From NCBI RefSeq assembly GCF_000949475.1, contig NZ_JRHC01000007.1:124001-188000 (forward strand): 64,000 nt of DNA, given 5' to 3'. Shown here piece by piece: positions 26,021 to 42,482 of the stretch. Numbering within the stretch: the stretch's first letter is position 1; every line of letters starts with the position of its first letter. The notes beneath the pieces were generated by a model. That model did no database searches. It had not been told where the DNA came from and worked only from the letters and a program-made list of their open reading frames with translations. Position numbers and translations under genes: made by a program. This DNA is from Draconibacterium sediminis (GTDB lineage Bacteria; Bacteroidota; Bacteroidia; Bacteroidales; Prolixibacteraceae).

Positions 26021-26068
26021 AGCAGCTAAAATAACACAGGGTAAAAGAAACTAATTTATTTTTTTTTT

Positions 26069-26076
26069 TAAATTTG
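26069..26076 (+). promoter_or_regulatory. -7 element for the DUF3822-rsmD cluster
   Basis: TAAATTTG lies 36 nt before the ATG at 26113, after a run of T. No -33 box is obvious. Confidence 0.5.
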
Positions 26077-28764: not shown

Positions 28765-28990
28765 ACGGCTATAATTTAAATTAAAAACGGTTTTGTAGTC
28801 CTGCCGGTTGAAGACAGGAATTTTCACATTTTAAAAGACCTCATAGTCTTTTATTTAAAAACAATGGCATAAATAAATGGTTCAGTGATACGACAATGTG
28901 TAAACAAAATATGGTGTTTGGGGTTATGCTGACAAACGATTTTAGGCTTTGCAAAAACAATCAGAAATCAAAAAAAAACCGCGCAAGACT

Positions 28991-29626
28991 ATGAAATTAG
29001 ATAGCATAAGAAGAGAATACCGATTTGCAGCACTCACCAAACAAAGTGTGGCTGCTTCCCCAATCGATCAGTTTAAAGAATGGCTCAACGACGCGCAACG
29101 TGCCAACGTAAACGATTTTTCGGCGATGAGCCTGGTTACTGCAGAAACCGGTGCTTTTCCCCAATCACGAATTGTGCTGTTGAAAGATATTTCGGTGGAT
29201 GGATTTACCTTCTTCACCAATTACGACAGCCAAAAAGGAAAGGCCATTGAAAAGAACAACAAGGTTGGTCTTCATTTCTTTTGGCCCGAATTGGAGCGAC
29301 AAGTGCGTATTGACGGCGTTGCCGAAAAAACATCAAGAGAAGCATCGGTACAGTATTTTAAATCGCGCCCTTTGGAAAGTCAGATTGCAGCTTGTGCTTC
29401 GGCTCAAAGTGCCACATTAACCTCCCGAAGTAAACTTGAAGAACAATACCGATCCTTACAAAATGCCTTACAGGGCGACCATCCTGAATGCCCGGAGAAT
29501 TGGGGAGGTTACCTGGTTCGTCCGGTAAAAATGGAATTTTGGCAGGGCCGCGAAAGCCGCCTGCACGACCGTATTGTTTATGAGTTAGTTGAAAACGAAT
29601 GGAAAATTAAACGTCTGTCGCCTTAA
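28991..29626 (+). CDS. pdxH: Pyridoxamine 5'-phosphate oxidase
   Basis: A 211-residue FMN enzyme (ATG 28991; an upstream TTG at 28949 is open but unlikely). Visible motifs: LDSIRREYRFAAL, SRIVLLKDISVDGFTFFTNYDSQKG, QVRIDGVAEK, and the C-terminal signature WGGYLVRPVKMEFWQGRESRLHDR with the final RLSP. It oxidises pyridoxamine/pyridoxine phosphate to PLP. It overlaps the 3' end of dnaX by 4 bp in a tail-to-tail arrangement. Confidence 0.94.
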   Translation: MKLDSIRREYRFAALTKQSVAASPIDQFKEWLNDAQRANVNDFSAMSLVTAETGAFPQSRIVLLKDISVDGFTFFTNYDSQKGKAIEKNNKVGLHFFWPELERQVRIDGVAEKTSREASVQYFKSRPLESQIAACASAQSATLTSRSKLEEQYRSLQNALQGDHPECPENWGGYLVRPVKMEFWQGRESRLHDRIVYELVENEWKIKRLSP

Positions 29627-31373
29627 AAATCAAGGTTTAAAGTTCGTTTCAGTAAGGCCAGGTTTGGATTCTTTTTGGCCATTTCCTGGTACTTTTCAAT
29701 ATCGGAATAAATCACTTTCTCACGCACAATATCTGAAACCACCGTTTTTAGGCCAATCTTCGAGTTGCGTAATTCTTTGCGCAGGTACGAAACCAATTCC
29801 GGCTTAATATTTACCAGTAACTCATCCTGAATACGGTTATCCACTTCCAGCAACAAACTCCAGTCTTCCTGAATTGTTGGTAAAATCGACAAGGTGGCTT
29901 TCAAACTCGGACGATCATCCAGACGTGGCAAAAATGCTTTCCACTTTTCTTCCAGCTGTTCGGCCGTAAACGGTTCGGTTTCATCAGCTTTTGAATACAA
30001 TTTAAACTGCTCTTTCGCCGACAATTGTTTGTTCTCATCATCAAAATCACCTTTCAGTGCTCTTTTTATCGAGGTTGTTCCAAGTCCGCGGCCCGAACGT
30101 TTTACTAATCTTTTTGGTGGTGTTGCCGGTGTTGAACTTACCGCTTGTTCCGGTTGAGTATTCTGTTGTGGTATTTTAACCGGCTGACTTTTGGGTTGAG
30201 CAACAAGCTTTTCGTCGGGCAGGTTTATGCCCGAAAAAATGGGTTCCAGGATGTCATCCTGACCTTCAGCTATTTTTTTTTTAAGGTTAGCTGTGCTATC
30301 CGAATCAAAGCCAGCTCAATAAGCAGACGTTTGTTTTGGCTTGTTTTGTACTGTATATCGCAGGTGTTGGCAATTTGCATCGCATCCAGCAGGAAGTCGC
30401 TTTCGGTGGCTGCGGCCTGAGCACGATAGCGTTCTTTTATATCGCCACCAACTTCCAGCAGCTGTATCGTTACCGGATCTTTACATACCAGCAAATCTCT
30501 GAAATGGCTACTCAGCCCGGTAATAAAATGATGCCCGTCGAAACCGTGGTTCAGGATATCGTTGAAAATCACCAATACCTCGGTTACATTGTTTTTCAGA
30601 AACTCGTCAACCAAACGGAAATAGTAATCGTAGTCCAACACATTCAGGTTGGTAATTACATCCTGATAGGTAATCTTTTTTCCTGAGAAACTTACTATCT
30701 GGTCGAAAATTGAAAGTGCATCACGCATGGCGCCGTCGGCTTTTTGCGCAATAATATTCAATCCTTCGCCTTCCACTTCAACACTTTCACTTTTCGCCAC
30801 ATATTCCAAATGCTCTGAAATATCGGATACGCCAATGCGGTTAAAATCAAAGATCTGACAACGCGAAAGAATGGTTGGAATGATCTTATGTTTTTCGGTG
30901 GTAGCCAAAATAAAAATGGCATGTTTTGGCGGCTCCTCCAGCGTTTTCAGGAAAGCGTTAAAAGCCTGCGACGACAACATGTGAACCTCATCGATGATAT
31001 ATACGCTGTACTTCCCCATTTGAGGCGGTACACGCACCTGGTCGGTCAGGTTCCGGATATCGTCGACCGAGTTATTCGAAGCGGCATCCAATTCGTGAAT
31101 ATTAAACGAACGGCTGCTGTTAAACGAAGTACACGACTCGCATGTGTTGCATGCTTCAGTCTCGTCGGTAAGGTTGGTGCAGTTTATTGTTTTGGCAAAA
31201 ATACGCGCACAAGTTGTTTTCCCCACACCACGCGGCCCGCAAAACAAATAGGCATGCGCCAACTGATTGCTCTTAATGGCATTCTTTAGCGTGTTGGTAA
31301 TCGATGCTTGTGCAACAACCGTCTGAAACGAGTCCGGTCTGTATTTTCGTGCTGATACAATAAAATTCTCCAT
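29623..31373 (-). CDS. dnaX: DNA polymerase III subunit tau (full length through a -1 frameshift)
   Basis: The clamp-loader gene is split between two frames. Residues 1-367 (from ATG 31373; GTG 31379 is also open) contain the AAA+ module: CGPRGVGKTTCARIFAK, the four-Cys zinc motif (CTNLT...CNTCESC), IDEVHMLS, LEEPPKHAIFILATTE. They end LTLKKK-stop at 30270. The -1 frame continues without a stop from the A10 run (30273-30282) to 29623 and encodes a Pro/Gln-rich linker and a C-terminal domain (SAKEQFKLYSKADE...KRTLNLDF), as in tau. The frameshifted product would be 583 residues. Tau tethers polymerase cores and DnaB. A homopolymer sequencing error is the alternative. Confidence 0.85.
30242..30282 (-). 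promoter_or_regulatory. Predicted dnaX frameshift/slippage signal
   Basis: On the coding (minus) strand: ten consecutive A (30282 down to 30273), the zero-frame stop TAG, an 8-nt spacer (TAGCTGAA), then a stem CAGGAT-GAC-ATCCTG (30261-30247) extended by GGT/ACC across a 2-nt bulge. Slippery run, spacer and hairpin match the layout of known -1 frameshift sites; the A10 run could also cause transcriptional slippage. Confidence 0.7.
30270..31373 (-). CDS. dnaX: DNA polymerase III subunit gamma-like product (zero-frame)
   Basis: Normal decoding ends at the TAG directly after the A10 run, giving a 367-residue protein that contains the ATPase and collar-type helical domains (ending LLIELALIRIAQLTLKKK) but lacks the tau-specific linker and C-terminal domain. 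This is the size and domain content of a gamma subunit, able to work in the clamp loader without binding polymerase. Its existence depends on the A10 count being correct. Confidence 0.75.
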   Translation of the reverse strand: MENFIVSARKYRPDSFQTVVAQASITNTLKNAIKSNQLAHAYLFCGPRGVGKTTCARIFAKTINCTNLTDETEACNTCESCTSFNSSRSFNIHELDAASNNSVDDIRNLTDQVRVPPQMGKYSVYIIDEVHMLSSQAFNAFLKTLEEPPKHAIFILATTEKHKIIPTILSRCQIFDFNRIGVSDISEHLEYVAKSESVEVEGEGLNIIAQKADGAMRDALSIFDQIVSFSGKKITYQDVITNLNVLDYDYYFRLVDEFLKNNVTEVLVIFNDILNHGFDGHHFITGLSSHFRDLLVCKDPVTIQLLEVGGDIKERYRAQAAATESDFLLDAMQIANTCDIQYKTSQNKRLLIELALIRIAQLTLKKK

Positions 31374-31459
31374 AGTCACTTTAGAAGTTGACCAAAGATA
31401 ATTAAATATGGCTTTTTAGCAGTGTTTTTTTATTAACATCGAAAGCCTTACTTTTAGCC

Positions 31460-42464: not shown

Positions 42465-42482
42465 TTATAGCTTTTTTTTTGA

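Follow-up and report, generated by a model that had tools for sequence, protein, structure and literature searches.

A run of ten adenines with the other reading frames closed suggests slippage decoding of dnaX in Bacteroidota and of coaBC in one family

Introduction

In the parts of their paper that concern dnaX, Antonov et al. (2013; PMC3711429) described a two-ORF form of this gene in 17 genes of 12 genera, nine of them with ten A, for which transcriptional realignment was predicted; their criterion for transcription over translation was the presence of both shift directions among orthologues. The dnaX gene in our window (the whole 64,000-nucleotide stretch of Draconibacterium sediminis DNA analysed here) is like these A10 genes in having gamma in the zero frame, tau in the -1 frame and ten A at the junction, and it belongs to this class already described in 2013. 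One architecture is named in those parts of the 2013 paper, whereas here we found all three frame states over 387 loci, counted closed frames and included genes that lack the run.

Thermus thermophilus dnaX is decoded by transcriptional slippage at A9 and has nearby stops in both non-tau frames, as described in the sections cited of PMC1088944 and PMC5009743. The window gene is similar in its A homopolymer, in the close stops in both non-tau frames, and in the predicted derivation of gamma and tau from one gene. The two differ in that tau is the templated frame in Thermus, whereas gamma is templated in the window; the in-frame half of the Bacteroidota genes reported below matches Thermus. E. 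coli dnaX (L484) likewise yields gamma and tau from one gene through a frame change in an A-rich site, but its site has six A and a G (A_AAA_AAG) with an upstream Shine-Dalgarno (SD)-like element and a stem (PMC3711429, dnaX sections, and the sequence of L484), whereas that of the window is pure A10; the E. coli frameshift makes gamma, whereas the frame change in the window would make tau. Shigella mxiE, as treated in the relevant part of PMC1088944, depends on slippage to reach the longer of two products from overlapping frames, as proposed here, but it is an unrelated gene with a run of U.

Results and Discussion

The dnaX locus of the window

The features of the locus are as follows.

30270..31373, minus strand: dnaX gamma (zero) frame, AAA+ clamp-loader core and domain III (Pfam, NCBIfam)
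30273..30282, minus strand: A10, the putative slippery run (T10 on the plus strand, with CTA before it at 30270-30272)
30270..30272, minus strand: TAG, stop of the zero (gamma) frame, immediately 3' of the run
30266..30268, minus strand: TGA, stop of the third frame, which messages with two A too many or one too few would enter
29623..30273, minus strand: tau C-terminal tail in the -1 frame, 215 codons past the run and a stop (NF011531, dN/dS)
30247..30261, minus strand: hairpin CAGGAT-GAC-ATCCTG, kept in some congeners
30216-30235, minus strand: second stem CGGGCA...TGCCCG, about 38 nt behind the run, common to the window, L085 and L086

The minus-strand context of the run is ...ACC TTA AAA AAA AAA TAG. 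The gamma ORF (30270-31379) is 369 residues long from a GTG, with an ATG at 31373, and its C-terminus is KKK; the -1 frame reads through the run without interruption, and the tail stops at 29623-29625. A gamma frame ending in AAA AAA AAA TAG next to a -1 tail open for about 215 codons was what the first-pass annotation had claimed, and we confirmed it in the sequence. The gamma part matched Pfam DNA_pol3_delta2, DNAX_ATPase_lid and DNA_pol3_gamma3 as well as NCBIfam TIGR02397 and NF011531 (PRK14971, DnaX, 614 positions), the last over 1-365. A Pfam search with the tail gave no match; searched alone against NF011531, the tail matched positions 428-612 with an E-value of 7.8e-24, and we therefore assigned it as the tau C-terminus. 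The dN/dS of the tail was 0.076 against L085 and 0.093 against L086, both congeners, indicating purifying selection (for five further relatives dS was saturated and gave no ratio). Within the tail frame of the window the first ATG or GTG lies at codon 142 and a TTG lies about 83 codons in (ORF 29623-30024). Since the tail is under purifying selection and has no near start, it is a maintained part of dnaX, and a frame change is the simplest route to it. The earlier proposal that the -1 tail is that of tau thus held up on both the profile match and the selection. Its companion, that gamma and tau both derive from one dnaX with tau reached solely via a frame change at A10, is supported as the probable reading. 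The nearest named relative among the best 80 of at least 594 stretches was Sunxiuqinia (Prolixibacteraceae, L005), at 80% in the dnaX core.

Conservation of the run

We sampled 60 genomes of the same GTDB family, of which 58 gave a dnaX core, and all 58 genes had an A run at the boundary between core and tail (A9 in one, A10 in 49, A11 in eight). Within the family the position of the run and its flanks vary while its length hardly varies. The first-pass annotation had named relatives without run and stop as a refuting case; there were none in the family, where 54 of the 58 genes have a -1 tail.

The wider sample comprised 387 Bacteroidota loci, 80 of them from named genome contigs (the best 80 of at least 594 stretches) and the rest from family, order and phylum searches. 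The order search found a match in 187 of 198 genomes, from which 120 loci were taken: one for each of 110 families, from its first genome with a match, and ten more. Nine or ten of these extra loci were picked mainly because their open frame was short; this choice raises the out-of-frame count and leaves the one-per-family figures unaffected. From other classes of the phylum 93 of 109 matches were taken, and the paralogue hits L002-L004 were excluded. A boundary run of at least nine A was present in 281 of the 387 loci and was exactly ten long in 198; the longest boundary run was A8 in 10, A9 in 42, A11 in 34, A12 in four, A13 in three, and shorter than eight or absent in 96. When each family was represented by one locus, the run was present in 72 of 143 families, and it occurred in 35 of 36 loci from other orders of the class and in 60 of 93 from other classes of the phylum. 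Elsewhere in dnaX, runs of nine or more A numbered zero in 406,085 bases of core and four in 177,653 bases of tail, so the 281 boundary runs are beyond chance. The run was retained at GC3 values up to 0.94, and 44 of the 274 genes scored below had a GC3 above 0.6.

The 96 runless loci, which count against the slippage reading, are partly whole clades, with seven clades of four or more on our tree. Examples are L178-L193, L200-L203, L010, L021 and L040, and runless genes had no excess of closed frames at the boundary. We considered whether another slippery heptamer replaces the run in them and rejected this idea; an in-phase heptamer occurred in 24 of the 96 (from -20 to +150 codons), at scattered positions.

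Frame of the tail and stops in the other frames

Genes were scored when they had a run of at least nine A and a tail open for at least 120 codons, which gave 274 of 280 (duplicate L011 removed); the contig ends in the tail in L033, L052 and L269, and the tail is open for 39, 44 and 94 codons in L280, L315 and L354. Relative to the core, the tail was in frame in 137 genes, in the -1 frame in 126 and in the +1 frame in 11, a split between in-frame and -1 genes that is no population estimate as the loci are non-independent (58 from one family) and nine or ten of those from the order had been selected by frame length. Both shift directions, the sign of transcriptional realignment in the cited part of Antonov et al. 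(2013), thus occur here. The family alone had 54 tails in -1, three in frame and one in +1, and the three in-frame genes (L087, L109 and L112) carry A11 with LKKKIAD unchanged. On a FastTree phylogeny of the dnaX core (run excluded, 385 rows) frame state changed at least 43 times over 273 tips, a count that tree errors would raise, compared with 98 for shuffled labels. Ten of 79 sister pairs differed in frame, e.g., Aquimarina mytili (L067, in frame) and Aquimarina sp. RZ0 (L077, -1). The run was longer in +1 genes than in -1 genes (means of 10.6 and 10.0; Mann-Whitney P 0.001, in a test that ignores kinship), as would be expected if a +1 tail needs a rarer slip.

Frames other than that of tau were regularly closed behind the run. 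Both non-tau frames stopped within five codons in 66% of in-frame, 71% of -1 and 91% of +1 genes among the 274, and within 10 codons in 91%, 96% and 100%, respectively. Positions drawn at random from the tails of these genes gave 11, 8 and 8% (within five codons) and 30, 22 and 24% (within 10), and at the same place in 90 of the 96 runless genes, which have tau in frame, the values were 4-5% and 15-16%. With one gene per family, both other frames were closed within 10 codons in 62 of 69. In the window the TAG follows at once and the TGA two codons on. Pure -1 shifting never enters the third frame, so its closure argues that all three frames are probably used, which is how Thermus dnaX mRNA has been described (PMC1088944 and PMC5009743). 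We rejected the third-frame stop of a single gene as a clean divider from E. coli, in which the +1 frame stops 12 codons on; the counts decide, not single genes.

Proposed mechanism

We favour, with good confidence, a reading in which dnaX is decoded by slippage on the A10, most likely by RNA polymerase. The polymerase would reiterate or skip on the T10 template and produce a pool of mRNAs with 10, 11, 12 or 9 A. Translation of messages with the templated number would end at the TAG and yield a gamma with KKK at its C-terminus; one additional A would lead into the -1 tail and yield tau; and two additional A, or the loss of one, would lead to the TGA and so to another product of gamma size. The signal would then be the run together with stops in all frames except one, which would leave the tail free to drift in frame through single-base indels, and relatives do have it in all three frames. 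Homopolymer slippage fits because it accounts for a run length that stays constant, a frame that is free, the loose phase of the run, the closed third frame and both shift directions; the arrangement also recurs in coaBC. The sequence, its conservation, the closing of both other frames, the selective constraint on the tail and the absence of a nearby start codon are direct observations; slippage itself, its transcriptional level, its efficiency and the use of both products are what we infer. RNA polymerase seems the likelier slipping machine than the ribosome by analogy with Thermus and with the RNA polymerase hybrid, which is 9-10 bp according to the relevant part of PMC5009743. Thermus-type transcriptional slippage had been offered as the second of two mechanisms in the first-pass annotation, and it appears the better fit given the frame-free tails and the closure of both other frames. 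Counting against slippage, -1 tails far outnumber +1 tails (126 to 11), which is also expected of -1 ribosomal shifting; insertion-biased slippage by the polymerase likewise predicts this excess.

Hairpin, upstream elements and ribosomal shifting

An unlikely alternative is that the mRNA is faithful and that the ribosome shifts on the run, either by a hairpin-aided -1 shift on A_AAA_AAA or by multi-frame sliding on poly(A). A -1 shift would suffice for 126 of the 274 genes, and E. coli ribosomes do slide on iterated AAA (PMC4363877, in the part cited). The CAGGAT/ATCCTG stem to which the first-pass annotation had pointed does exist, with a GAC loop and 8 nt past the TAG. Among the five members of the genus it is kept in the window, in L085 and in L087 (where both partners of one pair differ), disrupted in L086 despite 98% identity over the gamma core, and absent in L088; the second stem, as listed above, is common to the window, L085 and L086. 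Of the parts of the proposed signal, the run is kept in all 58 family genes and the hairpin in three of five genus members.

Stems of at least 6 bp behind the run showed no enrichment, being present in 10 of the 58 family genes versus 5-11 of 58 at five control offsets, in 14 of 126 -1 genes (controls 6-21) and in 10 of 137 in-frame genes (controls 12-22). These counts, with folding of the 60 nt behind the run, led us to reject the hairpin as a general stimulator: mean z-scores were -0.34 (-1 genes) and -0.41 (in-frame genes) versus -0.16 and -0.36 at +150 to +210, and z-scores below -2 occurred in 8.7% and 12.4% versus 5.6% and 11.7%, although this mononucleotide z-test is blind to the E. coli dnaX stem (z -0.14), making the z-scores weak evidence. 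The 60 nt after the window's run, which contain both stems, had a z-score of -3.0. From these comparisons the hairpin does not seem to be a general part of the mechanism, and it may have a local role in the window's genus. SD-like AGGA or GAGG motifs within 25 nt upstream were in small excess (18-21% versus 11-15% in control windows; 19% of the 126 -1 genes versus 15%, and 21% of in-frame genes versus 13%), and the E. coli-type heptamer A_AAA_AAG is absent at the window's run, in which the ten A are followed by T.

Plain -1 shifting would yield no tau in the 11 +1 genes and would need neither a closed third frame nor ten A. The first-pass proposal of -1 ribosomal frameshifting with a hairpin stimulator is unlikely as a general mechanism: these 11 relatives need +1, half of the scored genes are in frame, the third frame is closed and the stem is not enriched. 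In a comparison of genomes, sliding on poly(A) would look much like polymerase slippage, but it should favour phasing by whole AAA codons, whereas the phase of the run relative to the codons was loose (phases 0/1/2: 22/76/39 in frame and 3/56/67 in -1 genes) and phase 1, with two full AAA in ten A, was commonest in frame (76 of 137). These counts weakly disfavour poly(A) sliding proper.

Sequencing error, phase variation and separate genes

Homopolymers are error-prone, and the in-frame family genes L087, L109 and L112 have A11, so we considered whether a sequencing or assembly error in the run conceals a gene that is truly in one frame. This is highly improbable, since A9-A11 is present in all 58 family genes; moreover, 54 of these, in separate assemblies, would need the same shift, the conserved stops in both other frames are beyond what errors produce, and the shift is also found in isolate contigs with stated coverage of 309 (L081) and 372 (L075).

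Comparably improbable is DNA-level phase variation, in which slipped-strand mispairing at the run would generate tau-making and tau-less clones. Frame switches are indeed seen inside genera (genus g1, for instance, has both A10 and A11), but the in-frame genes have the same stops, and run length stays near ten over the phylum; contingency loci are expected to show a spread of run lengths. Tau is needed in every cell in E. coli, and presumably every cell here needs it as well.

Least probable of all is a pair of separate genes, in which the tail would have its own start or be reached by re-initiation: the stop does lie directly before the tail and the window has its TTG, but across the 137 two-frame genes the first ATG or GTG of the tail is at median codon 54 (TTG uncounted), within five codons in 0.7%, and an ATG or GTG upstream of the run is found in seven, with the window at codon 142.

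A second candidate gene, coaBC

Across the 6.0-Mb genome there were 25 distinct A10 or T10 sites (27 hits). Besides dnaX, two sense A10 runs lay well inside long frames, those of coaBC (L410) and L404. The former is placed as follows.

Contig C12, 308256-308265, minus strand: coaBC A10 (L410/L425), between CoaC and CoaB (TIGR00521)

A coaBC match was found in 39 of 41 genomes of the family (loci outside the window genome are L455-L483 and L485-L493), with A9 in five, A10 in 28, A11 in three and no such run in three (A7, A4 and A4). Among the 36 with the run, 16 had CoaB in frame, 19 had it in -1 and one had it in +1, and both other frames stopped within five codons in 89% and within 10 in 92%, whereas random sites within CoaB gave 8% and 27%. 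Twenty genes with the run are thus split. Five of these have a candidate start no more than five codons from the aligned CoaB start (ATG or GTG in L489-L491, TTG in L481 and L488); in L483 an ATG lies 15 codons in, in L485 an ATG lies 71 codons upstream in the open CoaB frame, and in the remaining 13 the first ATG comes 23-29 codons in. A minority of the split genes, judging from these positions, may have their own start or use re-initiation. L492 and L493 (genus g15) lack the run and have a TTG at the CoaB start, so that coaC and coaB look like separate genes there; their lineage may use a second start instead of slippage. Outside the order, 38 other genomes had a match, and over the 29 loci taken from them the A run at this place reached at most eight. 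From this pattern coaBC is likely a second slippage gene of the window's family. Among the matches of a full-text search of open-licence papers we found no report of coaBC frameshifting or slippage, and Antonov et al. (2013) do not mention it in their main text.

Implications

On comparative grounds we lean towards a broader interpretation, in which the A10 with stops in all frames but one would be a general, frame-agnostic punctuation module of Bacteroidota that gives a short and a full-length protein through RNA polymerase slippage, its length being kept while the frame drifts; in the window's family it would have been recruited to coaBC, where CoaB in many species has no near start and would be slippage-dependent. 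As far as our searches reach, the phylum-wide frame-agnostic pattern of dnaX, to which no title or opening of an abstract pointed among the matches listed from open-licence papers, and the presence of the same module in 36 of 39 coaBC loci of the family are new. If slippage on A10 is indeed used, the genomic frame of dnaX in much of the phylum does not tell which protein is templated, and annotation that ignores slippage may label many such genes broken. Natural replicates are available in sister species that differ in the frame of tau (in frame, -1 or +1) and in the runless clades, so the role of gamma would be testable by comparison. With coaBC, dependence on transcriptional slippage may extend to an essential gene of metabolism.

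Other A and T runs

The other A or T runs of at least nine in the window are a T11 at 26059-26069, between listed ORFs; an A9 at 28970-28978, near the start of ORF 28949-29626; and a T9 at 42472-42480, inside a short TTG ORF right behind a 96-residue ORF. Elsewhere in the genome, the in-frame A10 of L404 (contig C1 at 2418245) lies in an 874-codon open frame, the other frames stopping after 15 and 5 codons. The A10 sites L397, L398, L409, L414 and L417 are apparently outside genes or at gene edges, and in L402, L406 and L408 the mRNA strand of an open frame (96, 92 and 307 codons, respectively) carries T10.
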